Position numbers and translations under genes: made by a program. A stretch of DNA of 64,000 nt. It comes from Paludibacteraceae bacterium (GTDB taxonomy: Bacteria; Bacteroidota; Bacteroidia; Bacteroidales; Paludibacteraceae). Shown here in pieces: positions 4,683 through 17,361 of the stretch. A model generated the notes under the pieces. The model made no database searches. It saw nothing but the letters and a program-made list of their open reading frames with translations, and had not been told where the DNA came from. Each line of letters opens with the position of its first letter. Positions within the stretch are counted from its first letter, which is position 1. The DNA lies in contig JAFZLC010000030.1 in assembly GCA_017551675.1 (NCBI GenBank), positions 1-64,000 of the forward strand, written 5' to 3'.

Positions 4683-4748
4683 CCTAAATCTGGGTATTTC
4701 TTTCCGAAATTCAGGTTCCTTTCGTCATTCTAATGTGGCATATATTTG
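4683..4748 (+). promoter_or_regulatory. AraC-type operator pair and promoter for the hydrolase-flavodoxin unit
   Basis: Box 1 at 4683 (CCTAAATCTGGGTA) and box 2 at 4704 (CCGAAATTCAGGTT) are direct repeats 21 bp apart. The -7 element TATATTTG lies at 4741-4748, exactly 37 bp from the start of box 2. The same geometry recurs before 7273 and 14317. Box 2 covers the approach to the -33 region, as expected for an activator. Confidence 0.75.
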
Positions 4749-4773
4749 TAACAAATAAAAAAATAGATTTAAT

Positions 4774-5862
4774 ATGAAAAAAATAGCAATAATCGTTGTG
4801 GGTATAATCTCATTATGGGGTTGCTCGCAACCAAAAAACGACACGACAATGAACACACAAGAATTGCAGCTCACACAGGAATGGGACAAGGTTTTCCCTC
4901 AAAGCGACAAGGTGAACCACAGTAAAATCACTTTCCGCAACCGATACGGAATCACGCTGGCAGCCGATTTGTATGTGCCGAAGAACACAACAAAACCAAT
5001 GCCCGCCATTGCCGTAAGCGGTCCGTTTGGTGCTGTGAAAGAACAGACTTCAGGCCTTTATGCACAAACAGTGGCTGAACATGGATTCCTGACCATCGCC
5101 TTCGATCCGTCGTTCACTGGCGAGAGTGGTGGCGAACCGCGTCGTATGGCTTCGCCCGATATTAACACCGAAGATTTTTTGGCGGCAGTCGATTATCTGT
5201 CGAATCGTGAAGATGTTGACGCAGAGAGGATTGGCATCATCGGTATTTGTGGCTGGGGTGGAATGGCAATCAATGCTGCTGCTATCGACCCACGTATCAA
5301 AGCGACTGTGGCAAGCACCATGTACGATATGAGCAAGGTGACTGTTGAGGGATATTTCGGCAGCGAAAACACACCTGCCCAACGCATGGAGAAACGTCGT
5401 GCAATCAGTGCCCAACGCACCGAGGACTATCGCACAGGCAGTTACAAACGTGCAGGAGGCGTGGTTGACCCGCTACCCGACGACGCACCGTGGTTTGTGA
5501 AAGATTATTACGACTACTACAAAACATCCCGAGGCTATCACAAACGTAGCGGCAACTCAAACGATGGTTGGAACGTTATCGGCTGTCAGTCGTTTCTCAA
5601 CCAAAATCTGCTTTGCTTCGCCAACGAGATTGAAACGCCCGTTTTGCTCGTCCACGGCGAGAAGGCCCACAGTCGTTATTTCAGCGATTACGCCTTTGAA
5701 AAGATGACTGGCGTGAAACCTGAAGATGGCAAAAGTGCGAAGGTTGGCAACAAGGAACTGCTGATTATCTCTGGCGCTGTCCACACCGACCTTTACGACA
5801 ATAAGGCTGGCGTGATTCCTTGGGAGAGAATCGAGGATTTCTTCAGCGAGAATTTGAAATAA
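4774..5862 (+). CDS. Alpha/beta hydrolase lipoprotein (dienelactone hydrolase-like)
   Basis: A lipoprotein signal peptide (ISLWGC, lipid-modified C17) is followed by an alpha/beta hydrolase domain. The nucleophile-elbow motif is GICGWGG with C159, as in the dienelactone hydrolase/COG1073 branch where Cys replaces Ser. The likely catalytic His is H337 in SGAVHTDLYD. The substrate is unknown. It probably sits in the periplasm or on the outer membrane. An internal Met at residue 26 (base 4849) comes after a short Asn/Thr linker, where a cytoplasmic homologue could begin. It is the first gene after the AraC-type operator and is followed by an exported flavodoxin 18 bp downstream, so the two probably form one transcript. 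Confidence 0.85.
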   Translation: MKKIAIIVVGIISLWGCSQPKNDTTMNTQELQLTQEWDKVFPQSDKVNHSKITFRNRYGITLAADLYVPKNTTKPMPAIAVSGPFGAVKEQTSGLYAQTVAEHGFLTIAFDPSFTGESGGEPRRMASPDINTEDFLAAVDYLSNREDVDAERIGIIGICGWGGMAINAAAIDPRIKATVASTMYDMSKVTVEGYFGSENTPAQRMEKRRAISAQRTEDYRTGSYKRAGGVVDPLPDDAPWFVKDYYDYYKTSRGYHKRSGNSNDGWNVIGCQSFLNQNLLCFANEIETPVLLVHGEKAHSRYFSDYAFEKMTGVKPEDGKSAKVGNKELLIISGAVHTDLYDNKAGVIPWERIEDFFSENLK

Positions 5863-5880
5863 CCTTTAATTTCAAACATA

Positions 5881-6405
5881 ATGAAACAGATAGTATTAAC
5901 ATTATTCAGTTTATTGATTATGAGTACAATATCGGCACAAAACAAGACCCTTGTGGCCTATTTTTCAGCTTCGGGTGTAACGAAAAAGGTGGCTACCGAA
6001 TTGGCGGTGGTTGCCAATGCTGACCTTCATGAGATCAAGCCTGCTCAAGCCTACACCAACGCAGATCTCGACTGGCATGATAAGCAATCACGTTCGTCGG
6101 TGGAGATGGCCGACAAAAAGTCTCGCCCAGCCATCACCGATAAACTTGTTAACATATCTGACTATCAGACGGTTTATGTGGGTTTCCCGATTTGGTGGTA
6201 CACTGCTCCGACCATTATCAATACTTTCTTCGAGAGCTACGATTTCAGTGGTAAAACCGTTTGTTTGTTCGCAACAAGCGGTGGTAGTACCATTGACAGG
6301 GCTGTCAAAGATCTGAAGACAGCTTATCCAAAAATCAATATCAAAAGCGGTCGTCTGCTCAACAATGCGGGGAAGAAAGAGTTACAGGAATTTGTTGGGA
6401 GGTGA
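5881..6405 (+). CDS. Exported flavodoxin
   Basis: A Sec signal peptide of about 20 residues ([10 protein letters not shown]) precedes a complete flavodoxin fold. The FMN phosphate loop is [10 protein letters not shown] near residue 30, the WWY motif of the flavin-flanking loop is in [11 protein letters not shown], and ATSGGSTI is the second flavin loop. Flavodoxins normally carry electrons in the cytoplasm, so the leader is odd; a second exported flavodoxin is at 8458. It is the second gene of the operon that starts at 4774. It may serve as an FMN-dependent reductase or quinone reductase; the partner is unknown. Confidence 0.85.
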
Positions 6406-6462
6406 TGAATAGACTATATTCGCATCGATGATATGCCTACTATGCTTGGACAAATCATCAAG

Positions 6463-6518
6463 AACCGAAGGCGAGAGCGTGGATTGCAGTTCCACGAGGC
6501 AGCCTCGGTTTTTTTTAT
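6463..6518 (+). terminator. Intrinsic terminator after the flavodoxin
   Basis: AACCGA-A-GGC pairs with GCC-TCGGTT, and an inner stem CGTGGA/TCCACG closes the loop; eight T follow. A 29-codon ORF (6433-6522) happens to span it and ends at a TAA right after the T tract; it reads like the first residues of a helix-turn-helix protein, but I do not call it a gene. Confidence 0.8.
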
Positions 6519-6548
6519 TTAAGTCGCTATCTGTGATTGCAAAACACC

Positions 6549-7121
6549 TCACCTCTTCCGATACTCCTTCGGACTCATGCCCTTCATGCGCGAGAAGAAC
6601 TTGCTGAATGAAGGGGTGTCGGCAAAGTGGAGGTGGTCGGCTATCTGGGTGATGCTCAGTTGGGAGGTTTTCAATAGGAAGGAGGCCTCGATCAGTAACA
6701 TCTGATTGATATAGTCGACAACGGTGCGACCGGTGACCTGACGGACCACGCGGGAGAGATAGACGGGGGAGATATGAAGCTTGGAGGCATAGAACGGGAT
6801 GTCATGGTGTTCTACAAAGTAGCGGGGCAGCAGGCGGATGAAACCGATAAAGATTTCCTCCACACGCTGTGGCGTCTGGCGGTGTACGATGGCATGTTGT
6901 TGCGCGTTCTGCAGGTCAAGTAGGAATATGGAATAGAGCATGCGCAACACCTCACTTTTATAGATGTGGTCGGAATGAATATAATCGATGATTTCGCGCA
7001 TTTTAACAATCAGATGTTGTGCGGCATCTGAGGCCAGTGTCTGTTTCGGCTCATGTAATTGTACAAGGGGCAGGTAGGCCAGATGTACGATGTCGATGGG
7101 ATAGTTATTCCTAAATAAATC
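6549..7121 (-). pseudogene. Truncated AraC-family regulator
   Basis: The C-terminal half is intact: two helix-turn-helix units (IPFYASKLHISPVYLSRVV and LSITQIADHLHFADTPSFSKFF) ending MSPKEYRKR, the classical AraC/XylS DNA-binding domain. The N-terminal sensor domain is missing. The frame stays open upstream of the first ATG (7001) to 7121, where a TGA lies at the edge of a perfect hairpin. The extra codons look like native regulator sequence, so the gene has lost its 5' part. If still made from 7001, a 150-aa DNA-binding fragment would result. A full-length AraC (16446) closes the same island. Confidence 0.7.
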
Positions 7122-7123
7122 TC

Positions 7124-7161
7124 AAAAATCCTCCATATCGCTGGTGATATGGAGGATTTTT
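7124..7161. terminator. Perfect hairpin, bidirectional terminator-like
   Basis: A 16-bp perfect inverted repeat (AAAAATCCTCCATATC / GATATGGAGGATTTTT) around a 6-base loop. The A-rich and T-rich flanks allow termination on either strand. It lies at the breakpoint of the truncated AraC gene and directly upstream of the next operator. Confidence 0.7.
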
Positions 7162-7180
7162 CGTCTCTTTGAAGCAGAAA

Positions 7181-7246
7181 CCGCAATAATGGTAACCCTT
7201 CCCGAAATCTGTTTACCGCATTTATGCCCCACGTCGCTTACATTTG
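7181..7246 (+). promoter_or_regulatory. AraC-type operator pair and promoter for yqhD
   Basis: Box 1 at 7181 (CCGCAATAATGGTAA) and box 2 at 7202 (CCGAAATCTGTTTA) are 21 bp apart, and the -7 element TACATTTG at 7239-7246 is 37 bp from box 2. This is the same layout as before 4774 and 14317. Confidence 0.78.
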
Positions 7247-7272
7247 CATTATCAATTTAAAACAAAAACAAT

Positions 7273-8436
7273 ATGCAAAACTTTGATTATCAAACCCCGA
7301 CCCGCCTTATCTTCGGCAAAGGCGTAATCGCAAAACTGCCCGAAGTAATGGCGCAGTTCGGCAAGAAAATCCTTCTCACCTACGGCGGTGGAAACATCAA
7401 GAAAATCGGTATCTATCAGAAAGTTAAGGAACTTTTGACGGACTGCGAAATCGTCGAACTCTCAGGCATTCAGCCCAATCCAAAATACGACCCGAGCGTT
7501 TTGGACGGCGTGAAGTTGTGCAAGGAAAACAACGTTGACGTAATCCTCGCTGTTGGCGGAGGAAGCGTGCTCGACTGTTCCAAGGCAATTGCGGCGGGTG
7601 CTTGCTACGACGGCGACCCGTGGGATTTGATTTCGTACAAGGTGAAGGCTCAGAAGGCGTTGCCAATCGTTGACATCATCACCTTGGCGGCAACGGGCAG
7701 CGAGTACGACTGCGGCGGCGTTATCTCCCGCACCGAGACCAACGACAAAATCGGCTATGTGGATCCGCTGTTGTTCCCTGCCGTATCGTTCCTCGACCCC
7801 GAATACACTTTCACCGTGTCAAAGAAACAGACCGCTGCGGGTATTGCCGACGCTATGAACCACACTATCGAACAGTATTTTGTGGAGGACACCACTCTCT
7901 TGAACGACGGTTTCTGTGAGTCGATGTTGCGCAGCCTGATGCAGAACGGCCGCCTCTGTCTCGACAACCCCAACGACTACACCGCCCGCGCTGAAATGAT
8001 GCTTGCCTGCACTTACGGTTGCAACGGAATCCTCTCGCTCGGCAACTCAATGTCGGGTTGGCCCTGCCACGGCATCGAACACGCCCTGAGCGCGTATTAC
8101 GACATCACCCACGGCGAAGGCTTGGCGATAATCACGCCGCGTTGGATGCGCCACATCTTGAACGAGAAGACAATGCCGCGTTTTGTCAAGTACGGCATCA
8201 ACGTGATGGGTGTTTCGCCGAATTTGCCGTTGGAGGTAATTGCCAACCGTGCCATCGACGCCACCTACGACTTTTTCAAGAGTATCGGAATCCCGATGCA
8301 CCTCCGCGAAGTAGGAATCGACGAAAGCCGCATCGACGAAATGGCTCACCACATCGCCGTCAACGAAGGTCTCGAAAACGCCTACGCCCCGCTCAACGAG
8401 GACGACATCAGGCAGATTTTGATTGACAGTTTGTAA
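7273..8436 (+). CDS. yqhD: NADPH-dependent aldehyde reductase / iron-type alcohol dehydrogenase
   Basis: A group III metal-dependent alcohol dehydrogenase that reduces a broad range of aldehydes to alcohols, in the cytoplasm. Length (387 aa) equals E. coli YqhD. The NADP-binding GGGSVLD is at 95-101. The metal ligands D193, H197, H266 and H280 sit one position from those of E. coli YqhD. ATG lies 26 bp after a TAnnTTTG element and downstream of a paired AraC-type operator, as expected if an AraC protein activates it (E. coli YqhC does so for yqhD-dkgA). It is cotranscribed with the flavodoxin lipoprotein 21 bp downstream. Codons are rich in C and G compared with the flanking chromosome. Confidence 0.93.
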   Translation: MQNFDYQTPTRLIFGKGVIAKLPEVMAQFGKKILLTYGGGNIKKIGIYQKVKELLTDCEIVELSGIQPNPKYDPSVLDGVKLCKENNVDVILAVGGGSVLDCSKAIAAGACYDGDPWDLISYKVKAQKALPIVDIITLAATGSEYDCGGVISRTETNDKIGYVDPLLFPAVSFLDPEYTFTVSKKQTAAGIADAMNHTIEQYFVEDTTLLNDGFCESMLRSLMQNGRLCLDNPNDYTARAEMMLACTYGCNGILSLGNSMSGWPCHGIEHALSAYYDITHGEGLAIITPRWMRHILNEKTMPRFVKYGINVMGVSPNLPLEVIANRAIDATYDFFKSIGIPMHLREVGIDESRIDEMAHHIAVNEGLENAYAPLNEDDIRQILIDSL

Positions 8437-8457
8437 AAAATTATAATACGTAATACT

Positions 8458-9063
8458 ATGAAAATCAAATCAATAATCATCGCAATTGCGGCGTTGTTCG
8501 CCATTGGCTGCACCGCCCAAAGCAATCAGAGTTCCAACAATCAAAACAGTAACGCAATGAAATCCATCGTAATCTTCTTCTCGCACGCCGGCGACAATTA
8601 CAGCGTTGGCAACATCAAAGTAGGCAACACCAAAATCGTTGCCGACTACATCACCGAAATCACCGGTGCAGACCAGTTTGAAATCGCCACGTCAAAATAC
8701 GACGGAATGGCGTACACACCCCTTTGCGACCTCGCCAAACAAGAGCAACGCGACGGCGAACTCCCGCCTTACGAGGGCAAATGTCCCGACCTCAGCGGCT
8801 ACGACACCGTGTTTATCGGCGGACCCGTTTGGTGGGGAACTTACCCGCAAGTGATGTTCACGCTTTTTAAGGACATCAACCTCGACGGCAAGACCGTAAT
8901 CCCCTTCACCACGCACGAAGGCAGCGGACTCGGACGTTGCGTTTCTGACGTCAAGAAAGCCTTCCCGAAGGCCGACGTAAAACAGGGTTTCTCGATGTAC
9001 GGACACGACGTGCGCACAGGCAAGTCAACCGTTGAAAAATGGATTAAAGGATTGGGATACTAA
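8458..9063 (+). CDS. Flavodoxin lipoprotein
   Basis: A lipoprotein signal (ALFAIGC, modified C18) and an Asn/Gln/Ser linker precede a flavodoxin-like domain that starts with MKSIVIFFSHAGDNYS. It continues with a WWG flavin loop (GGPVWWGTYP) and TTHEGSGLG. The internal Met at residue 34 (base 8557) is placed exactly where cytoplasmic flavodoxins begin, so the leader looks grafted onto an intact protein, or two forms are made. It follows yqhD by 21 bp and probably shares its transcript. A remnant of an aldo/keto reductase follows. Confidence 0.85.
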   Translation: MKIKSIIIAIAALFAIGCTAQSNQSSNNQNSNAMKSIVIFFSHAGDNYSVGNIKVGNTKIVADYITEITGADQFEIATSKYDGMAYTPLCDLAKQEQRDGELPPYEGKCPDLSGYDTVFIGGPVWWGTYPQVMFTLFKDINLDGKTVIPFTTHEGSGLGRCVSDVKKAFPKADVKQGFSMYGHDVRTGKSTVEKWIKGLGY

Positions 9064-9083
9064 CATTTTAACCCCCTACAAAT

Positions 9084-9486
9084 GTGGAAAGACACATAAA
9101 ACTCTCCAACGGCGTGGAAATGCCGCTCTTGGGATACGGAGTGTTCCAAGTAAATCCGCAGGAATGTGAACGCTGCCTTCGACCACCTTGCCGACATCAC
9201 CGACAAGTTTTTGCAACAGAAAGGCGTCGGGAAATTCTATATGTACGTTTTTGACTACGGTGCGCCAATCGGATTCCGCATTGCGACGAAACACCCCGGA
9301 AACGTCCTCGGCATCATCTCTCAAAACGGCAACGTCTATGCCGAAGGCCTCGGCAAAAAATGGGAGGCTCGCGCCGAATATTGGAAGAACCCGGTGCCTC
9401 TCATTGCGACCTCTACGACGGCGGCAAGGGCACCTACATCCCCTTGGAATAAGATAGAAGAGTTTTTCACGGAGTACTTGAAATAA
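9084..9486 (+). pseudogene. Mosaic remnant: aldo/keto reductase start, epoxide-hydrolase-like middle, hydrolase end
   Basis: Three pieces in different frames. From 9098 to 9175, 76 of 78 bases match the 5' end of the aldo/keto reductase at 12483-12560. The frame then changes, and 9172-9390 encodes an epoxide-hydrolase-like stretch (FDYGAPIGFRIATKHP and IISQNGNVYAEGLG). The last piece encodes HCDLYDGGKGTYIP and, one base out of frame, KIEEFFTEYLK, matching the end of the 4774-type hydrolase. The extra T near 9449 separates the last two frames. No functional product is expected. Confidence 0.85.
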
Positions 9487-9552
9487 CGAAGAAGAAAAGT
9501 GAAAGCCATAACCGCGCATTGTATGAAAATAAATTGTACATTTGCCTTCAGA

Positions 9553-10176
9553 ATGAGCAAATATTTTGAATACGGAGACAAGGAAACAGACTATCTCCGA
9601 CAGAAGGACAAGCGGATGGCCGAGGTCATCGACCGTGTGGGGCATATCCACAGGGCGGTGGATGAGGATTTGTTTTCGTCGGTCGTCCACCACATCGTCG
9701 GGCAGCAGACCGTCTGGCGGCGGATGCAGGAGTGCTTCGGCGAGGTGACGGCAGAGACCATCGCAGGAGCAACACCAGAGGACTTGCAATCGCAGGGCAT
9801 GACCTTCCGAAAGGCCGAGTACATCAAGGACTTCTGCCGTCGGATAACAAGCGGGGAGTTCGACCTGCAGGCCGTCAGTCAGATGAGCGACGCGGACGCT
9901 ATCCGCACACTCTCGTCGCTGAAGGGCATCGGCGTGTGGACGGCAGAGATGATTCTGCTGTTCTGTCTCCAGCGGCCCGACGTGCTCAGTTACGGCGACC
10001 TTGCCATCCAGCGCGGCTTGCGGATGGTGTACCACCACAGGGAAGTAACTCCGCAGTTGTTCGAGAAGTACCGCCGCCGTTTCTCACCCTACGGCAGCGT
10101 GGCCAGCCTCTACCTCTGGGCCGTGGCTGGCGGCGCGATTCCTGAAATGAAAGATTATCAAACCAAAAAGAAATAG
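9553..10176 (+). CDS. alkA: DNA-3-methyladenine glycosylase II family
   Basis: Removes alkylated purines from DNA as the first step of base excision repair. The 207-aa HhH-GPD domain has the helix-hairpin-helix LKGIGVWTAEMILLF at 123-137 and the catalytic Asp149 in SYGDLAIQRG. The upstream in-frame GTG (9499) is rejected, because a -7 element TACATTTG lies at 9537-9544, inside that extension; the ATG at 9553 is the start and the transcript would have almost no leader. The ogt gene begins 3 bp after its stop, so the two repair genes form an operon. It lacks the N-terminal domain of E. coli AlkA. Confidence 0.9.
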   Translation: MSKYFEYGDKETDYLRQKDKRMAEVIDRVGHIHRAVDEDLFSSVVHHIVGQQTVWRRMQECFGEVTAETIAGATPEDLQSQGMTFRKAEYIKDFCRRITSGEFDLQAVSQMSDADAIRTLSSLKGIGVWTAEMILLFCLQRPDVLSYGDLAIQRGLRMVYHHREVTPQLFEKYRRRFSPYGSVASLYLWAVAGGAIPEMKDYQTKKK

Positions 10177-10179
10177 CCG

Positions 10180-10716
10180 ATGGACTACACGACACACTAT
10201 CAGTCGCCCCTCGGCGGCATCACGCTGGCCTCTGACGGCGATGCACTCGTCGGCCTCTGGTTCGACGGGCAGAAATACTTCGCCGATGCGCTCGCAGAGC
10301 AGTACCAAAAGCGCGACGACCTTCCCGTGTTCGACGACACGCGTCGCTGGCTCGACATCTACTTCAGCGGCCAGGCTCCCGGCTTCACACCAACGCTCTT
10401 GATGCGTACCAGCGACTTTCGGAAGCGTGTGTGGGAAATCATGCTCGGCATCCCCTTCGGCCATACGATGACCTACGGGCAGATAGCCCGCCAGATAGCC
10501 CTTGAGCGTGGCATCCCCACGATGTCAACCCAGGCCGTCGGTGGCGCAGTAGGTCACAACAGCATCTCGCTCATCATTCCCTGCCACCGCGTCGTAGGCG
10601 CCAGCGGCTCACTGACAGGCTACGCCGGAGGCATCGACAAGAAACTGCGCCTGCTCCAGATGGAGGGCGCATTGCAGCCCGACTTCTTCATTCCAACGAG
10701 GGGAACGGCTTTATGA
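10180..10716 (+). CDS. ogt: Methylated-DNA-protein-cysteine methyltransferase
   Basis: Directly reverses O6-alkylguanine in DNA by suicidal transfer of the alkyl group to a Cys. The acceptor motif IIPCHRV has C135; the helix-turn-helix region with MTYGQIARQIA and the arginine-finger-type NSISLI segment are present. The 178 aa fit Ogt rather than the larger Ada. Translation starts 3 bp after alkA, so the genes are coupled. The pair provides base-excision and direct repair of alkylation damage, consistent with an island that handles reactive electrophiles. Codons are C/G-rich like its neighbours. Confidence 0.95.
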   Translation: MDYTTHYQSPLGGITLASDGDALVGLWFDGQKYFADALAEQYQKRDDLPVFDDTRRWLDIYFSGQAPGFTPTLLMRTSDFRKRVWEIMLGIPFGHTMTYGQIARQIALERGIPTMSTQAVGGAVGHNSISLIIPCHRVVGASGSLTGYAGGIDKKLRLLQMEGALQPDFFIPTRGTAL

Positions 10717-10740
10717 AGACATCAAATATCTTAGATAATT

Positions 10741-11136
10741 ATGAAGCACAAAGTTAAGATTACCGTCATCGACAAGAAACTCTATCCCGAACTGCAAGCA
10801 CAATATTGCGCCGACAAGAATGCTGGCGCGTGTCCTTGCTACAACGTGGGTGACGAGTTCATTTTTGAGCGCGACGAACTGAACGATCATTTTTGGCACG
10901 GCGGACTGAACACGTTGGTCAAAACAGCCGCCAACCCCGACACCGTGGCGGGCGGACCCAAAATGCCGCATTGCTCGGAAGCATGGGACGCAATCAGCCG
11001 CTACATCTACACGGGCTTGCAGGGCGGCTCAATTATGAAAGGCTGGATGGCGCGGGAAAACGAGATGATTTGTTGTTGCTCTGACGGCACCCGCCCTGTA
11101 ATCTTCAAAATAGAGCGAATTGACGAGGAAGAATAG
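10741..11136 (+). CDS. TIGR04076 family protein
   Basis: A 131-aa cytoplasmic protein with the family pattern: start KHKVKITVIDK, the CPCYNVGDEF segment, a central MPHCSEAWDAISRYIYTG and the end CCSDGTRPVIFKIERI. Seven or more cysteines suggest metal or redox chemistry, but the family has no firm function that I know. It is 24 bp after ogt and could be part of that transcript. A short coding remnant follows it. Confidence 0.75.
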   Translation: MKHKVKITVIDKKLYPELQAQYCADKNAGACPCYNVGDEFIFERDELNDHFWHGGLNTLVKTAANPDTVAGGPKMPHCSEAWDAISRYIYTGLQGGSIMKGWMARENEMICCCSDGTRPVIFKIERIDEEE

Positions 11137-11138
11137 TT

Positions 11139-11276
11139 TGCGGTTACAACGATGCATTTTACAAGAAACGTGACCGAGCAATGTTCGAGAAAACCCTTCA
11201 ACACCTGATTGACGAAACCTGCAAAGGCAACCTTTTCGGCGAGTGGAACGACAGCGGAAGGCTGATAGGATATTGA
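11139..11276 (+). pseudogene. Coding remnant, 45 codons, no start
   Basis: An open stretch reading CGYNDAFYKKRDRAMFEK and, further on, GNLFGEWNDSGRLIGY before TGA. The codon use is like the neighbouring genes and the amino-acid composition is protein-like, but there is no start codon near its beginning. It looks like the C-terminal end of a lost gene; I do not recognise the family. Confidence 0.4.
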
Positions 11277-11289
11277 ATACAAACAGTTT

Positions 11290-11637
11290 ATGAACGTCGA
11301 AGAAGTAAGAACCTACGCATTGAGTTTGAGCCGACAGGTTACCGAAGACCTTTTTGCCGACGAGTGGATTTCGTGGCGTATTGGTGGCAAATGGTTTCTG
11401 CTGATGCAGTTAGACGCACCCGAGCCGCGCGTGGCGGTGAAACTTCCGCCCGAAACAGGCCTTGTCCTGCGCGAGCAATACAGCGGCGTGCACCCCGCCT
11501 ACCATATGAACAAACGGCATTGGAACGATTTGTATCTCAATCGGTTACCCGACGGTTTTGTAAAAGAGCAAATCAAAGCGTCGTACAATTTAGTTGTCGG
11601 CAGTCTGCCCAAACGGATGGGGTTGGAAGCGGTTTAG
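11290..11637 (+). CDS. MmcQ/YjbR family protein
   Basis: A 115-aa protein of the MmcQ/YjbR fold: N-terminal MNVEEVRTYALSLSR, the central GGKWFLLM strand, VAVKLPPE, and the C-terminal YHMNKRHWNDLYLN followed by IKASYNLVV. The fold resembles the CyaY-like DNA-binding type; the biological role is not established. Such genes often lie beside small detoxification genes. It is followed by an AraC-type operator pair that starts a new transcription unit. Confidence 0.85.
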   Translation: MNVEEVRTYALSLSRQVTEDLFADEWISWRIGGKWFLLMQLDAPEPRVAVKLPPETGLVLREQYSGVHPAYHMNKRHWNDLYLNRLPDGFVKEQIKASYNLVVGSLPKRMGLEAV

Positions 11638-11647
11638 GCTGGTTTCC

Positions 11648-11702
11648 CCGAAATCAAGGTAATTCTTTCCGAAAAGTACAAACATTTATCCACCTAATTT
11701 TG
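11648..11702 (+). promoter_or_regulatory. AraC-type operator pair and promoter for the acetyltransferase
   Basis: Box 1 at 11648 (CCGAAATCAAGGTAA) and box 2 at 11669 (CCGAAAAGTACAAAC) are again 21 bp apart. The -7 element TAATTTTG at 11695-11702 is 26 bp from box 2, one helical turn closer than at the other three promoters. Confidence 0.6.
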
Positions 11703-11715
11703 AATCGATTACAAT

Positions 11716-12267
11716 ATGAAAACAGATTTTGAAAAAATGCGCAGCCAAGAGTTCTACAATTTCACAAGTGAGGAATGTTTGGCGAGTTACTACAGAGCCA
11801 AGCACATTTGTGCGCGGCTGCAAACAATGACCACCGAGGATGTCGATTACCGACAGACGATAGAGGATTTGATTCCTGGCATTCCCGAATCGTCAACGGT
11901 GTCGCCGCCGTTCCATTGCGACCACGGACACGGCATAAAACTCGGCGAGAATGTTTTCGTTAACTACAACGCCACAATGCTCGACGGCGGCATTATCACC
12001 ATTGGTAGCAACACGCAGATTGGCCCCAACTGCCAATTCCTGACCCCGAACCACCCTATCGACTACCTTGAACGCCGCAAACCCATTGAGCGCTGCTCAC
12101 CCATTACCATTGGCGACGACTGCTGGCTGGGCGGCGGCGTGACTGTCTGCCCTGGCGTCACCATTGGCAACCGCTGCATTATCGGTGCGGGCTCGGTGGT
12201 CACAAAGAACATTCCCGACGATAGCCTGGCGGTAGGAAATCCCGCAAAGGTTATCAGGAATTTATGA
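11716..12267 (+). CDS. Maltose/galactoside O-acetyltransferase family protein
   Basis: Transfers an acetyl group from acetyl-CoA to a hydroxyl of a sugar or similar small molecule. The 183-aa chain has the N-terminal MAC segment (about 10-60) and a left-handed beta-helix of hexapeptide repeats (LGENVFVNYNATMLDGG through IGNRCIIGAGSVVTKNIPDD). The catalytic His is in TPNHPID. Members include LacA, Maa and NodL; the acceptor cannot be told from sequence. It has its own operator and promoter within the AraC regulon. Confidence 0.92.
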   Translation: MKTDFEKMRSQEFYNFTSEECLASYYRAKHICARLQTMTTEDVDYRQTIEDLIPGIPESSTVSPPFHCDHGHGIKLGENVFVNYNATMLDGGIITIGSNTQIGPNCQFLTPNHPIDYLERRKPIERCSPITIGDDCWLGGGVTVCPGVTIGNRCIIGAGSVVTKNIPDDSLAVGNPAKVIRNL

Positions 12268-12274
12268 AGAGTAG

Positions 12275-12538
12275 GGCTTCATAGAGCCGTGGGGACGCGG
12301 TTATAAGAAGATACGCGAGGGATTTGAATCGGCAGGTCTGCCTATGCCCAAAATTGAAGTATCGGAAGGTGGTGTGCTGGTGACTTTCCAACGGAACAAC
12401 GTGAATAACACACAAAATGAAAGTGTCGAAGAAAAGTGTATTTTTGTAAAAAACATTAAAATATCATTATTATGCAAAAAATTAAACTCTCCAACGGCGT
12501 GGAAATGCCGCTCTTGGGATACGGAGTGTTCCAAGTAA
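12275..12538 (+). pseudogene. Remnant of an AlbA_2/RecG-like ATP-binding protein
   Basis: The reading frame after a TAG at 12272 encodes GFIEPWGRGYKKIREGFE and then LPMPKIEVSEGGVLVTFQRN, the typical C-terminal end of divergent AAA-4/AlbA_2 proteins annotated as RecG-like transcriptional regulators. Everything upstream is missing. The frame runs on to 12538, over the start of the aldo/keto reductase. A -7 element TATTTTTG at 12439-12446 inside this tail probably drives the following gene. Confidence 0.7.
12439..12446 (+). promoter_or_regulatory. -7 promoter element before the aldo/keto reductase
   Basis: TATTTTTG fits TAnnTTTG, 26 bp before the ATG at 12472. Unlike four other island promoters, it has no CCGAAAT boxes at the expected distance, so the gene may have lost its regulation after moving. 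Confidence 0.5.
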
Positions 12539-13317
12539 GTCCGCAAGAATGTGAACGCTGTGTAACAGACGCTCTGTCAGTTGGTTACCGCCTGATAGAC
12601 ACCGCTCAGGCATACTTCAACGAAGAGGGCGTGGGCGAGGCTGTCAAGAAGTCGGGCATCAAGCGCGACGAACTCTTCCTCGTTACCAAGGTCTGGATTT
12701 CTAACGCGGGCGAGGAAAAAGCCGCCAAATCCATCGACGAGAGCCTGAAAAAGTTGCAGACCGACTACATCGACCTCTTGCTGATTCATCAGGCTTACGG
12801 CGACGTCTTCGGCACGTGGCGCGCGATGGAAAAGGCTTACAAGGACGGCAAAGTGCGTGCAATCGGCGTTTCTAACTTCCAAGAGGCGAGGTACTTCGAT
12901 TTTCATCATTATGTTGACGTAAAGCCGATGGTCAACCAACTGCAATGCAACGCGATGATTCAGCAACGCGGCATCGAACCGTTGCTTAACGAGACTTCGT
13001 GCCGTATGATGGCGTGGGGACCTCTCGGCGGACAGGGCGTTGACGGCATCGTCAAGAGCGAACTTTTGGGCAAAATCGGTTCAAAATACGGCAAAACGGC
13101 GTCTCAGGTAGCCCTTCGCTGGCTCACACAGCGTGGTATCGTGGCAATCCCAAAATCCACCCACAAGGAGCGTATGGTTCAGAACCTCAGCATTTTCGAC
13201 TTCACCCTCACCGACGACGAAATGTCCCAAATCGCTTCAATGAACCAACACGACAGCGGCACGGTCAACTTCTCGGATAAGAATTTCGTCAAGTATCTGA
13301 TTGAGACGTATGGTTAA
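12472..13317 (+). CDS. Aldo/keto reductase (2,5-diketo-D-gluconate reductase-like)
   Basis: An NADPH-dependent (beta/alpha)8-barrel reductase of aldehydes and ketones; DkgA of E. coli reduces methylglyoxal and is encoded next to yqhD. The 281 aa include the tetrad D43, Y48 (DTAQAY), K73 (VTKVW) and H106 (LLLIHQ), and the cofactor site IPKSTHKERM near the end. The 5' end has a near-identical copy at 9098-9175 and the 3' end a perfect copy at 14075-14123, so this gene has been the target of segmental duplication. The Nim-like gene follows after 14 bp. Confidence 0.93.
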   Translation: MQKIKLSNGVEMPLLGYGVFQVSPQECERCVTDALSVGYRLIDTAQAYFNEEGVGEAVKKSGIKRDELFLVTKVWISNAGEEKAAKSIDESLKKLQTDYIDLLLIHQAYGDVFGTWRAMEKAYKDGKVRAIGVSNFQEARYFDFHHYVDVKPMVNQLQCNAMIQQRGIEPLLNETSCRMMAWGPLGGQGVDGIVKSELLGKIGSKYGKTASQVALRWLTQRGIVAIPKSTHKERMVQNLSIFDFTLTDDEMSQIASMNQHDSGTVNFSDKNFVKYLIETYG

Positions 13318-13331
13318 AAATTGAGGACAAA

Positions 13332-13823
13332 ATGAAAACAATGAGTAATTTCAGACCAATGCGGCGCATCAAACAGCAAGTGCCGCACGACGAATGTATC
13401 AACATTCTGACCACTGCCAAACGCGGCGTGCTGTCGGTAATCAGCGACAACGGCTACCCCTACGCCGTGCCGGTGAATTTCTTTTACGACACCAACGACG
13501 GACACATTTTCATACACGGCGCTAAGGAGGGACACAAGATTGACGCAATCAGAAAGTCGCCCAAAGTGTGCTTCACCGTTTGGAACGACGGCGAGAAAAA
13601 GGACGGCGACTGGGCGTATTACGTAACGAGCGTGGTGGTTTTCGGCACGGCGGAACTTATTGCCGACGAGCAACTTACCGCCCGTCAGACCCGAAACATC
13701 GGCTTGAAATACTATCCCACGACCGCCGAAGTTGACGCAGTGATGCAGAGGTCGATAGCCAGGGTGCAGTTAATCGCCGTCAGCATAGACCAAATGACGG
13801 GAAAACTGGTGCACGAGAAGTAA
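13332..13823 (+). CDS. Pyridoxamine 5'-phosphate oxidase-fold flavoprotein, NimA-like
   Basis: A split-barrel flavin-binding protein of 163 aa. It shows the NimA/PPOX pattern: MRRIKQQV near the start, RGVLSVISDNGYPYAVPVNFFY, FIHGAKEGHKIDAIRKSPKVCF, and ITSV-type strands. Nim proteins reduce 5-nitroimidazoles to inactive amines; many relatives have other or unknown roles, so drug resistance should not be assumed. The start may be ATG at 13332 or 13341. It is cotranscribed with the aldo/keto reductase 14 bp upstream. Confidence 0.85.
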   Translation: MKTMSNFRPMRRIKQQVPHDECINILTTAKRGVLSVISDNGYPYAVPVNFFYDTNDGHIFIHGAKEGHKIDAIRKSPKVCFTVWNDGEKKDGDWAYYVTSVVVFGTAELIADEQLTARQTRNIGLKYYPTTAEVDAVMQRSIARVQLIAVSIDQMTGKLVHEK

Positions 13824-13923
13824 AATAAACCGCTGATTATCAATGAGCATCGAACAGAATTGAAAATTAAAAATCCCTGCGCCGCCTTAACGCTAAGTTA
13901 ACATCGGTTCGGTGATTTTTTTG

Positions 13924-14019
13924 TAAATTTGCGGCAAAAAATCATTAATAATGAAAAAGATTTTCACGCTCTTGACGCTTGCGCTCTGCCTTGCGGGTTG
14001 CGGCGTTGAAACTAAATAA
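13924..14019 (+). pseudogene. Orphan lipoprotein leader with its promoter
   Basis: A -7 element TAAATTTG at 13924-13931 is followed by an ATG at 13951 and 22 codons that form a complete lipoprotein signal (MKKIFTLLTLALCLAGCG), then a TAA at 14017. Nothing secretable follows. It is most likely what remains of a lipoprotein gene whose body was deleted together with the rearrangement marked by the 49-bp repeat; a tiny lipopeptide is the alternative. Confidence 0.6.
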
Positions 14020-14116
14020 ACAGAAAAAACAACGGTAAAGTACAATTATAATCAACCAATTAATATGGGAAAACCAAGTATCTGATTGAGACGTATGGTT
14101 AAAAATTGAGGACAAA

Positions 14117-14215
14117 ATGAAAATAACCATTGTCTTTGATGCCGCAGGAATGTGCTACCGTGCCCTCGGCGACAGCGTAGGGCAAGCGTGGGGCAGCGGA
14201 AAGAGGTTTGAATAA
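14117..14215 (+). other. Short ORF, 32 codons, after the duplicated junction
   Basis: Begins at the ATG inside the second copy of the 49-bp repeat and reads MKITIVFDAAGMCYRALGD and so on to TAA. It has the protein-like codon use of the island, and the duplicated upstream spacer would place it as the gene once downstream of an aldo/keto reductase. I do not recognise it; it could be a truncated gene start. Confidence 0.3.
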
Positions 14216-14220
14216 TCCAA

Positions 14221-14286
14221 CCGAAATATTGGTAAAAATCCCCGAAATATTGGCAACGGTTTTCAGTTTGAGAACCGTTATTTTTG
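14221..14286 (+). promoter_or_regulatory. AraC-type operator pair and promoter for the CMD-cupin unit
   Basis: The clearest copy: box 1 at 14221 (CCGAAATATTGGTAA) and box 2 at 14242 (CCGAAATATTGGCAA) differ by one base and are 21 bp apart. The -7 element TATTTTTG at 14279-14286 is 37 bp from the start of box 2. Confidence 0.82.
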
Positions 14287-14316: not shown

Positions 14317-15411
14317 ATGAAAAAAGCAATCATAACCTTGTTTTCGGCATTGGCACTCACCGCCTGTCAAAACAACCAACCTACTAATATTCAGAACGAT
14401 ATGGACAATACGACAATCAATTCAGAACCCCTGACCGCTCGTCAGAAATCTCTCGCCGCTTGTGCCTGTGTAATGGCGCAGGGCGACTTGCCCAAACTTG
14501 AAAACGAAGTCCGTAAGGCACTCAACAACGGCGTAACAATCAACGAGTTGAAGGAGGCATTTTCGCAACTCTACGCCTACACAGGATTTCCCCGCTCGCT
14601 CAATGCGTTGGGCGTTCTCAACAAGGTAATCAGCCAAAATCCCGACCCGAAATGGCAGGAAGGCAAGCCGTGGACCCGCCCCGCGCTATGGGACGACGCC
14701 AAGAAAGCCTACGAACAGGGCAAGGCGGTGCAGACCAAAGTGTCGGGCAGGGAGTTCAATTACGACTTCTGTCCGCAAGACGATTATTACCTCAAATCGC
14801 ACCTTTTCGGCGACATTTTTGCGGGTGACATTCTCAACGCTGCCGACCGTGAGATTGTTACCGTGGCGGCGTTAAGCGGCTTGCAAGATGTTGACCCTCA
14901 ACTTGCTGCACACAAACGCGGCGCGGTGAATATGGGCAACAGTCAGGCACTTGTTGACGAACTTTCTTCGTGGCTCGACAAGGAGGGCTACACGCTTAAA
15001 AGCCGTTTCTACAAAGGCAATCCCAATGTCAATTATGCACAATATTTCATTGGCAATAGTTACCTCAATCCGTTGCAGCCCAAGAACTTGAACGACGGCG
15101 AAAAGACCGTCCTGCCGATGAGCAACGTAACCTTTGAGCCGGGCTGCCACAACAATTGGCACATCCACCACGGGGCGCATCAGATATTGATTTGCGTTTC
15201 GGGTCGCGGATGGTATCAGGAATGGGGCAAACCCGCCGTCGCGCTCAATCCCGGCGACGTCATCGACATTCCCGAAGGCGTAAAACATTGGCACGGCGCA
15301 CAGAAAGACTCTTGGTTTCAGCACATTGCAACGCACGTGGCCACTGGCGGCGCAGAGAGCAACGAATGGCTCGAAGCGGTGAGCGACGAGGAGTATGGGA
15401 AGTTGGAATAA
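14317..15411 (+). CDS. CMD-CMD-cupin lipoprotein
   Basis: A lipoprotein signal (ALALTAC, C17) leads to two carboxymuconolactone-decarboxylase-type helical repeats (about 45-115, with NGVTINELKEAFSQLYAYTGFP, and 150-225) and a C-terminal cupin barrel (about 255-345). The cupin metal ligands are visible in WHIHHGAHQ and in GVKHWHGA. CMD proteins include AhpD-like peroxidase partners; the two-domain fusion is common in bacteria but the substrate is unknown. The internal Met29 (base 14401) lies after an Asn/Gln linker, where the unexported form would start. It has its own AraC-type operator, and the GNAT gene follows after 37 bp. Confidence 0.85.
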   Translation: MKKAIITLFSALALTACQNNQPTNIQNDMDNTTINSEPLTARQKSLAACACVMAQGDLPKLENEVRKALNNGVTINELKEAFSQLYAYTGFPRSLNALGVLNKVISQNPDPKWQEGKPWTRPALWDDAKKAYEQGKAVQTKVSGREFNYDFCPQDDYYLKSHLFGDIFAGDILNAADREIVTVAALSGLQDVDPQLAAHKRGAVNMGNSQALVDELSSWLDKEGYTLKSRFYKGNPNVNYAQYFIGNSYLNPLQPKNLNDGEKTVLPMSNVTFEPGCHNNWHIHHGAHQILICVSGRGWYQEWGKPAVALNPGDVIDIPEGVKHWHGAQKDSWFQHIATHVATGGAESNEWLEAVSDEEYGKLE

Positions 15412-15448: not shown

Positions 15449-16408
15449 ATGGACAACAAGGTACGAATAGAAACATACAATCCAAAATACAAGGAGGATT
15501 TTGTGAGGCTCAACAAGCAATGGATCGAGCGTTATTTCAGGGTGGAGAATTCCGACCTGAACACCTTCGAGCACATTGACGACGGCATCATCGGCTGCGG
15601 CGGTCAGATTTTCTTTGCCATTGACGAAAGCGGCTCTGTAATAGGCTGTTGCGCATTGAAACCGCATCCCGAAACCCAAAGTCACGAACTTGCAAAAATG
15701 GCTGTCGCTCCCGAGGCTCAGGGCAAAGGCGTAGGACGGATGTTGGGCGAGGCTCTTATAAAATATGCCGTCAAAAGCGGTGTTAGGAGGATTTTTCTCG
15801 AAGGTAACACCCGTTTGAAGGCTTCAATCGCCCTTTACCGTCGTCTCGGATTCAAGGAAATTCCGCTGAAAGACATCGCTTACGAAAGGTGCGACATTAT
15901 GATGGAACTGACTTTTGCATTTCGTCCGATTGAACCAAAAGACCAAGCCTCGCTCGCAAGGCTAATCCGCTCAGTATTTGAGGAATACGGTGCGCCACTT
16001 GTCAACACCGTTTATGACGACCCACGCACTTGGCATATCTACGACACGCTTCAAGGTGCTAACGCGGCATATTGGGTAGTTGAGGAGAACGGCGAAGTTG
16101 TGGGCGGCTGCGGATTTTTTCCCACCGAAGGACTGCCAGACGGTTATGCCGAATTGATAAAGTTTTATCTGTCAAAGCTATGCCGTGGCAAAGGCTACGG
16201 TTCGCGGCTGTTTTCGTTAACAATCGACGGGGCGTGGAAGGCGGGCTACAACCATTTGTACATTGAATCATTTCCCGAATTTGCCGATGCCGTAACAATG
16301 TACCGCCGCCACGGCTTTGTCCCCCTACCACACCGATTGGGACATTCGGGACATACCGCCACAAGTATTCATTTGGAATTGGAGCGGACAGAAAAAAGTG
16401 AAAATTAG
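15449..16408 (+). CDS. Tandem GNAT acetyltransferase
   Basis: Two N-acetyltransferase domains in one 319-aa chain. The first (about 5-150) has the acetyl-CoA loop APEAQGKGVGRML followed by GNTRLKASIALYRRLGF. The second (about 155-310) has the weaker loop CRGKGYGSRLF and ends with the usual MYRRHGFVPLPH. The two halves differ, so one may bind substrate while the other is catalytic. The acceptor is unknown. It is downstream of the CMD-cupin gene and probably cotranscribed with it. Confidence 0.88.
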   Translation: MDNKVRIETYNPKYKEDFVRLNKQWIERYFRVENSDLNTFEHIDDGIIGCGGQIFFAIDESGSVIGCCALKPHPETQSHELAKMAVAPEAQGKGVGRMLGEALIKYAVKSGVRRIFLEGNTRLKASIALYRRLGFKEIPLKDIAYERCDIMMELTFAFRPIEPKDQASLARLIRSVFEEYGAPLVNTVYDDPRTWHIYDTLQGANAAYWVVEENGEVVGGCGFFPTEGLPDGYAELIKFYLSKLCRGKGYGSRLFSLTIDGAWKAGYNHLYIESFPEFADAVTMYRRHGFVPLPHRLGHSGHTATSIHLELERTEKSEN

Positions 16409-16445: not shown

Positions 16446-17333
16446 ATGAAAGAGATACATTTCGATACTGTTCAGCAGTTCAATGATTTCTACGGTTTTG
16501 AGACGCTTCATCCGTTAGTGAGTGTGGTGCGTTTCGACAAAGAACACACGCTCGAAGAGTGTATGGTGCATTATGGCGTGTATGCTCTGTTTTTGAAAGA
16601 GAACAAGGGTTGCAAACTATCGTATGGACGTACCCAATACGACTTCGACGAGATGACCGTGACCTCTTTCGCTCCAGGACAGACTATTCACGTTGAGCCT
16701 AATCCAGACGTGGTGTTTCCTAAGTGGACGGCACTGGTATTTCACCCTGACTTCCTCGCTCGCACACAGTTAGGACGACAGATGTCGAGATACGAATTTT
16801 TCTCGTACAGCAGCAACGAGGCACTGCACCTTTCCGCAGGCGAAATAGAGATTTTCCGTAGCGTGTTGGCCATGATTCAGCAAGAACTGCAACACGCCAT
16901 CGACAAACACAGCCGTGAATTGATTGTGTCGAACATCGAATTGTTATTGAATTATTGCTTACGGTTTTACGACCGACAGTTTATCACCCGTGAGGAGATA
17001 AACCATGTGACGGTACAACGGTTTGAGTCGCTTTTAGACGATTATCTGACAGAGAAGGCTGCAATCAATGGCATTCCGACAGTGGCTTATTTTGCCGAGC
17101 AATGCAACCTTTCTGCTGGTTACTTTGGTGAGCTAGTGAAGGTGGAAACAGGTCGCACGGCGCAGGATTTCATTGCCGACCGAATTGTTCGTCGCGCCAA
17201 GGAACTGCTTAACAGTCAGACCTTAAGCATCGCTCAAGTGGCCGACCGTCTAGGCTTCGGTTATCCGCAACATTTTGTTCGTTTCTTCAAACGAAAGACG
17301 GGCAAGACACCAACAGAATATAGGGCGGCGTAG
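16446..17333 (+). CDS. AraC-family transcriptional regulator of the island
   Basis: Full-length, 295 aa: an N-terminal cupin-like effector domain (about 20-170) and a C-terminal AraC double helix-turn-helix (about 195-295, with PTVAYFAEQCNLSAGYFGEL and IAQVADRLGFGYPQHFVRFF, ending TPTEYRAA). It is the only complete regulator in the island and sits at its end. Four island promoters share paired boxes with 21-bp spacing, which is the usual spacing of AraC half-sites, so it is the natural candidate to bind them. The neighbours match targets of E. coli YqhC, which responds to reactive aldehydes. The effector is not shown by sequence. Confidence 0.9.
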   Translation: MKEIHFDTVQQFNDFYGFETLHPLVSVVRFDKEHTLEECMVHYGVYALFLKENKGCKLSYGRTQYDFDEMTVTSFAPGQTIHVEPNPDVVFPKWTALVFHPDFLARTQLGRQMSRYEFFSYSSNEALHLSAGEIEIFRSVLAMIQQELQHAIDKHSRELIVSNIELLLNYCLRFYDRQFITREEINHVTVQRFESLLDDYLTEKAAINGIPTVAYFAEQCNLSAGYFGELVKVETGRTAQDFIADRIVRRAKELLNSQTLSIAQVADRLGFGYPQHFVRFFKRKTGKTPTEYRAA

Positions 17334-17340
17334 ATACTTT

Positions 17341-17354
17341 CCGAAATCTGTTTA
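17341..17354 (+). promoter_or_regulatory. Single operator-like box after the AraC gene
   Basis: CCGAAATCTGTTTA, identical over 14 bases to box 2 at 7202, begins 7 bases after the AraC stop codon. No partner lies 21 bp away and no matching -7 element follows, so it is probably the remains of a further regulated promoter that marks the island edge. Confidence 0.4.
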
Positions 17355-17361
17355 TCTAAAT

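Follow-up and report, generated by a model that had tools for sequence, protein, structure and literature searches.

Four intergenic regions in the first 64,000 nucleotides of contig JAFZLC010000030.1 of a Paludibacteraceae bacterium (Bacteroidales; assembly GCA_017551675.1), a stretch hereafter called the window, carry similar direct repeats ahead of redox genes, which raises the question of what protein reads these repeats and to what signal it responds. The four tandem boxes are very probably binding sites of the AraC-family regulator encoded at 16446 in the same island. A dimer of this protein is predicted to bind each 21-bp direct repeat just upstream of the -7 element and, once bound, would activate transcription of the hydrolase-flavodoxin, yqhD-flavodoxin, acetyltransferase and CMD-cupin-GNAT units (CMD, carboxymuconolactone decarboxylase). 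The original prediction had described box pairs exactly 21 bp apart at 4683/4704, 7181/7202, 11648/11669 and 14221/14242, and all four proved exact on re-reading. The TAnnTTTG element at -7 likewise begins where it had been placed, at distances of 37, 37, 26 and 37 bp from the first base of box 2 (at 4741, 7239, 11695 and 14279, respectively); in the 11648 operator it therefore stands 11 bp nearer than in the other three. The wording of two CCGAAAT-nnn-GG boxes holds as a consensus but not literally, as only four of the eight half-sites (4704, 11648, 14221 and 14242) match CCGAAATnnnGG fully. The half-sites at 4683 and 7181 have one mismatch each, 7202 has two (TT for GG) and 11669 has three (CCGAAAAGTACA). 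The 14221 operator is the best match to the pattern in the genome. The identities of the predicted target genes were upheld by Pfam (Table 1).

Table 1. Positions of the operators and of the principal genes of the island in the window
Feature	Position	Strand	Details
Operator-promoter, hydrolase-flavodoxin unit	4683..4748	+	boxes 4683, 4704; -7 TATATTTG at 4741; read directly
Alpha/beta hydrolase (Peptidase_S15/DLH type), predicted target	4774..5862	+	Pfam; homologues behind operators in relatives
Flavodoxin_4 protein, hydrolase-flavodoxin unit	5881..6405	+	Pfam
Truncated second AraC gene	6549..7121	-	Pfam; without about the first 111 residues of the C35 paralogue
Operator-promoter, yqhD-like unit	7181..7246	+	boxes 7181, 7202; -7 TACATTTG at 7239
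YqhD-like iron-containing alcohol dehydrogenase, predicted target	7273..8436	+	best NCBIfam model PRK15138, 283 bits, cut-off 645
Flavodoxin_4 protein, yqhD-like unit	8458..9063	+	Pfam
Operator-promoter, acetyltransferase	11648..11702	+	boxes 11648, 11669 (box 2 degenerate); -7 TAATTTTG at 11695
Hexapeptide O-acetyltransferase, predicted target	11716..12267	+	homologues behind operators in relatives
DkgA-like aldo/keto reductase	12472..13317	+	NCBIfam PRK11565, 227 bits, cut-off 425
Operator-promoter, CMD-cupin unit	14221..14286	+	boxes 14221, 14242; -7 TATTTTTG at 14279
CMD/cupin fusion, predicted target	14317..15411	+	
Double GNAT protein, CMD-cupin unit	15449..16408	+	
AraC-family regulator, predicted operator reader	16446..17333	+	cupin sensor domain and AraC DNA-binding domain
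Orphan half-site CCGAAATCTGTTTATC	17341..17356	+	weaker match

Single half-sites are not rare in the window (155 matches with at most two mismatches, 171 expected), and half-site counts alone are uninformative. The claim that the spacing is hard to obtain by chance was confirmed on pairs, as the window holds seven 21-bp pairs with at most four mismatches in total, against a mean of 0.54 (maximum 3) in 100 first-order Markov shuffles. Four of the seven are followed by the -7 element, and none in all 100 shuffles; the 20 other spacings between 15 and 35 gave zero to three pairs each in the window, of which none or one had a -7. Across the whole 3.3-Mb genome, the two-box pattern with at most one mismatch occurs only at the four window sites and at position 60353 of another contig, C35, and the same pattern loosened to three mismatches gives 40 matches against 19 in reversed controls. 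Two CCGAAAT boxes together with the -7 (at most three mismatches) give five matches and no reversed control, namely 4683, 7181 and 14221 in the window and two sites on C35; the 11648 operator is absent from this list because its -7 offset is 26 bp. A looser phylum pattern adds one match in the same genome (C34:40078, three mismatches).

Contig C35 carries a second island (L009:8956-16659) with close copies of several genes of the window island. It encodes a hydrolase, a cyclophilin-like protein, an FMN reductase, an AraC protein 95% identical to the 16446 product, a flavodoxin, a second full-length AraC and YqhD; the contig ends inside the yqhD gene, the operator of which is nearly identical to that at 7181. 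The regulon apparently consists of two islands in one genome, made by duplication, and the window and C35 sites are therefore not independent of each other. The C35 counterpart (L009:12221) of the 17341 half-site has a -7-like TATATTTA exactly 37 bp on, ahead of a flavodoxin gene, and the window half-site has apparently been orphaned by rearrangement. The repeats themselves could be regarded as a meaningless by-product of promoter DNA duplicated within an island that has been copied and rearranged as a mosaic. The four sites nevertheless have differing flanks, and their geometry recurs in other genomes and orders, including genomes without the island (the held-out loci and the fresh class draw below), so that such an origin is almost certainly not the explanation.

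Whether the operator follows the regulator can be judged from relatives. AraC orthologues (E <= 1e-30) are present in 69 of 295 genomes of the order. A first set of 60 AraC-orthologue loci (884 kb) contains 23 pairs of the CCGWAATNNNGGTA half-site at 21 bp and none at 16-20 or 22-29 bp, and reversed and permuted motifs gave no pair at 21 bp in the same loci. In 49 of the 60 loci an AraC gene has a site no more than 400 bp away, and 40 of the 52 sites so placed have the -7 at 37 (only offsets of 26, 36, 37 and 38 were tried). A T variant surfaced on scanning the first of these loci: orthologues at about 50% identity mostly have CCGTAAT in place of CCGAAAT, and most relatives go undetected with CCGAAAT alone. 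The logo of 100 sites at offset 37 reads CnGTAATnnnGGTA-n7-CnGTAATnnRTnTA-n23-TAwwTTTGyA; the tail of box 2 lay outside the search pattern, yet shows T at 96% and A at 90%. CCGAAAT is a clade variant of a wider CnGTAAT consensus. Tandem pairs of related AraC genes, with 34-52% identity to 16446, were seen at loci L058, L059, L061, L064, L075 and L103.

A further 40 loci were picked among the matches listed, mostly with at most two mismatches and mostly away from AraC, one of which (L155) comes from a genome without AraC at E <= 1e-30. The genes behind the operators at these loci (42 of 43 open reading frames tallied by Pfam) include Flavodoxin_4 (7), CMD (5), FMN_red (5), Fer4 (4), aldo/keto reductases (3), and DUF3737, iron-containing alcohol dehydrogenase, DUF362 and hexapeptide proteins (2 each). 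Another collection supplied 78 named held-out loci (80 fetched, two sharing sequence with training loci removed), which were scanned with a weight matrix from the 100 sites at offset 37 and with the best of 390 shuffles as threshold. This threshold was exceeded in 62 of the 78, namely 42 of the 58 Bacteroidales loci and all 20 from other or unassigned groups, the latter including Pedobacter, Mucilaginibacter, Sphingobacterium, Fibrella, Larkinella, Emticicia, Terrimonas and Deminuibacter; 53 of the 78 scored above 20. All seven comparison loci (L012, L014-L018 and L180) scored below zero, and L013 in the same list contains the 7181 site, so it is no negative control. The 58 downstream reading frames tallied at held-out loci (of 68, nine AraC genes and one dubious frame being left out) include 14 aldo/keto reductases and 13 matches to the dienelactone-hydrolase family; each of the two tallies lists 25 of 44 families.

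The count in the order was partly circular, the pattern having been built partly on the same genomes, and it was repeated on a fresh draw from the class, with AraC-positive defined as E <= 1e-50 and with eight genomes already seen left out, along with G561, an AraC-negative genome whose 13 matches lie in 21-bp tandem arrays. Operator matches occurred in 23 of 56 AraC-positive genomes (40 matches vs 11 controls) and in 29 of 230 AraC-negative genomes (29 matches vs 30 controls). Where the AraC was at least 45% identical, a line drawn after seeing the table, 15 of 20 genomes had a match (p 4e-9); G532 (AraC 47% over 197 residues) belongs to this group and has none. Clear enrichment appeared only above 45% identity, and hence the operator seems to go with a single AraC subfamily. 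The operator is also present in all four annotated plasmid-collection records examined, of 61 matching (Parabacteroides distasonis, Emticicia oligotrophica, Bacteroides finegoldii and Runella rosea). In that order of species, it precedes a sugar O-acetyltransferase, a carboxylesterase-aldo/keto reductase unit, the AraC gene itself (where a weaker site faces the hydrolase) and a gene for a hypothetical protein with a cyclophilin-like protein encoded behind it.

In the scan of AraC-keeping relatives, fixed beforehand as the refuting test, the boxes thus follow the AraC orthologue through several orders and largely in front of the same target families. Operator, regulator and targets recur in Bacteroides, Phocaeicola, Prevotella relatives, Parabacteroides, Pedobacter, Mucilaginibacter and Emticicia. 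The original prediction had placed the operator in Bacteroidales, where it is indeed found, but this was too narrow, as several Bacteroidota orders carry it; the finding itself is correct and reaches further than had been claimed.

The 16446 product has the make-up of the AraC/XylS family, with a C-terminal HTH_18/HTH_AraC domain (PF12833, E 2e-19; PF00165, E 5.7e-12; both above cut-off) and an N-terminal cupin-type sensor/dimerisation domain. Covariation between protein and operator was scanned over 295 protein columns in 104 AraC-operator pairs, with base 4 of both boxes blanked; 38 of 142 AraCs were dropped as having no site above cut-off at offset 37, and L055/L213 entered twice. Residue 225 is the best predictor of base 4 of box 1 (0.48 bits), this base being T in 68 of 77 pairs with Asn225 and in 1 of 27 with other residues (Fisher p 7.5e-16, uncorrected for kinship). 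With the window's own clade left out, the figures are 68 of 77 vs 0 of 7 (p 2.5e-6). The tree has seven changes, with four independent supported residue-base pairs, of which on average 3.2 go the same way and 0.0 the opposite way. Residue 225 stands at the start of helix 224-235 in the structure model and is aligned with Trp40 of MarA (annotated 127-aa form), which we take to be the DNA-contacting Trp42 of the MarA-DNA structure. The attribution of the operator to this AraC was upheld by 62 of 78 held-out loci, by 15 of 20 fresh-draw genomes and by the covariation at residue 225; the conserved AraC-operator link together with the residue 225/base 4 relation makes 16446 the likely reader.

Two other candidates for this role have to be weighed. 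The boxes may serve a different, unrelated DNA-binding protein whose genes travel with this AraC, and tandem AraC paralogues at several loci do leave the acting copy uncertain. A direct repeat of 21 bp immediately next to the promoter is, however, the geometry of the AraC class, and the best covarying column of the whole AraC protein falls in a recognition helix. Moreover, AraC-positive genomes of the fresh draw have matches also away from AraC, whereas AraC-negative genomes stay at control level, and an unrelated reader is thus improbable. Still less probable is that the second AraC, which the original prediction did not name, is the regulator and 16446 incidental. Its remnant adjoins the yqhD operator in the window, a YqhC-like position, and the full-length gene on C35 (L009:12936-13814) is divergent from yqhD as in E. 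coli. On the other hand, the window copy lacks about its first 111 residues, the flanks of an orthologue (L180) have no site (score -15.8), and orthologues of at least 46% identity occur in only three other genomes of 295 (G120, G221 and G111). Many genomes have the operator without the second AraC, and G120 has the second AraC without an operator match. As a conserved partner of the operator, the second AraC was set aside for the rarity of its orthologues. Its truncation apparently stems from a deletion that placed the yqhD operator beside the AraC remnant.

Several observations weigh against 16446 as the reader of the boxes. The 11648 site combines a degenerate box 2 with the shorter -7 offset, and no two-box operator lies directly upstream of the 16446 gene in the window. 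At the level of genomes, 18 of the 69 AraC-positive members of the order lack an operator match at up to three mismatches, 16 of the 78 held-out loci, all Bacteroidales, do not beat the shuffles, and operator matches are not clearly enriched among genomes of the fresh draw with only AraC homologues below 45% (8 of 36, p 0.13). As regards the covariation, the runner-up column, residue 258, is close (0.45 vs 0.48 bits) and lies outside the recognition helices, the four supported tree pairs are too few for significance alone, and the signal at base 4 of box 2 is weak (1.2 vs 0.3 on the tree).

Binding by 16446 would likely activate rather than repress. The usual distance from the -33 to the -7 element is 19-21 bp, and a -33-type TTTG at this distance is found in 1 of 100 sites at offset 37. 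Box 2 ends where the -33 element would stand, and it is from this position and the near absence of -33 that we infer activation; a rare -33 is as expected of activator-dependent promoters. In 18 of the 100 sites box 2 itself contains a TTTG, placed 27 bp ahead of the -7, which was not counted as -33.

The closest known parallel is YqhC of E. coli, described in the available text of two papers as the AraC-type activator of the aldehyde reductases yqhD-dkgA (PMC5297802, PMC8262776). The parallel drawn in the original prediction stands as a functional one but not as orthology: BLASTP found one significant segment only, and 16446 as a YqhC orthologue was rejected at 25% identity over 80 helix-turn-helix residues (212-291). 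Like YqhC, 16446 is an AraC-type regulator next to an iron-containing alcohol dehydrogenase and a DkgA-type reductase. The YqhD-like 7273 and DkgA-like 12472 genes are both below the NCBIfam equivalog cut-offs, and homologues of both follow operators in relatives; an operator of its own was not found for 12472 in the window, but its homologue in L140 (78% identical) does carry an operator. The box sequence differs from that of YqhC, and many targets are predicted, against one operon in the accessible account of YqhC. The yqhC-yqhD gap of E. coli K-12 (L178) contains a direct repeat, AGAAATAGGCA/AGAAATGAGCA, exactly 21 bp apart and the only one of 9 in 11 at spacings of 15-30; this single observation makes it a candidate YqhC operator.

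Other systems are more distant. Unlike AraC/RhaR-type sugar regulators, 16446 is linked to redox enzymes and not to sugar catabolism. It shares the AraC-type helix-turn-helix with RhaR and with the hybrid two-component systems of Bacteroides, the motifs of which are also direct repeats in the part of the source available (PMC3878776). Those systems differ by a periplasmic sensor and kinase, or by sugar control, and, in the same portion of that source, by a long spacer between the repeats; the words aldehyde, flavodoxin and oxidoreductase are absent from its main text (PMC3878776). RclR, the reactive-chlorine regulator, is likewise an AraC-family stress regulator, and 16446 as RclR was rejected at 25.6 bits to NCBIfam NF040475, far below the curated cut-off of 400. 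The operator and its wider target set had been thought undescribed, and no description was found in the partial collection of literature searched, which included text of PMC10434189. The kind of system, an ordinary AraC-family regulon, is known; this member was not found described there.

As to the signal, the RhaR/AraC-like cupin domain would respond to reactive carbonyls or other electrophiles and so bring about induction; the inducers are presumably aldehydes or other such compounds, judging by the enzyme types. The sensor domain resembles that of RhaR, with 10-14% sequence identity to AraC/RhaR-type sensor domains. No AraC-family electrophile sensor of known ligand was recognised among 50 alignment rows, which carries no weight against one. 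A serious contender, somewhat short of an even chance, is a real operator whose regulon answers not to aldehydes but to oxidants, quinones, nitro compounds or a ligand derived from carbohydrates. The occurrence among the targets of flavodoxins, FMN reductases, 4Fe-4S proteins and DUF362 would agree with this, as would the RhaR-like sensor and the presence in the island of a NimA-like PPOX protein and of Ogt and HhH-GPD repair genes; against it, yqhD-like and dkgA-like genes, which YqhC is known to control as a pair, are found repeatedly among the targets. The widest form of the carbonyl or electrophile reading, which could equally well prove right or wrong, is that of an ancient, phylum-wide and undescribed one-component stress regulon with about ten operators per genome at most. 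It would be the Bacteroidota counterpart of YqhC/SoxRS-type responses, and on several occasions the replacement of one recognition-helix residue, Asn225, by Gly/Lys would have changed one base of its operator code.

To our knowledge, little has been mapped of how gut and soil Bacteroidota regulate their redox and detoxification enzymes, and we know of no assignment for most AraC-family members outside sugar use. With a defined operator, regulator and target list, many genes labelled 'AraC family' could be annotated and co-responding enzymes predicted. Likewise, the relation of Asn225 to T and of Gly225 to non-T is a directly testable piece of the AraC recognition code.

The closest AraC copies in the order draw (89%) sit in genomes of other families (G221 and G229), and the island has for this reason probably been acquired horizontally; the same-family genomes G041, G151 and G245 have no AraC copy or one at 41-50%. 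The island looks like a recombined mosaic. For example, at 9080-9486 the start of the aldo/keto reductase gene is fused to a hydrolase remnant (the fusion seen by eye, the hydrolase remnant by Pfam), and a copy of the 3' end of the aldo/keto reductase gene lies at 14081-14120 (by eye). The PPOX-class protein at 13332-13823 has the NimABCDEF nitroimidazole reductase family as its best NCBIfam model (123 bits, below the cut-off of 260). An HhH-GPD glycosylase adjoins an Ogt-type methyltransferase at 9499-10716, and these DNA repair genes would fit electrophile stress. Outside the island, a protein with long lysine/alanine/glutamate-rich repeats is encoded at 1-1299 (by eye), with a metE-type methionine synthase gene (Pfam) downstream of it.

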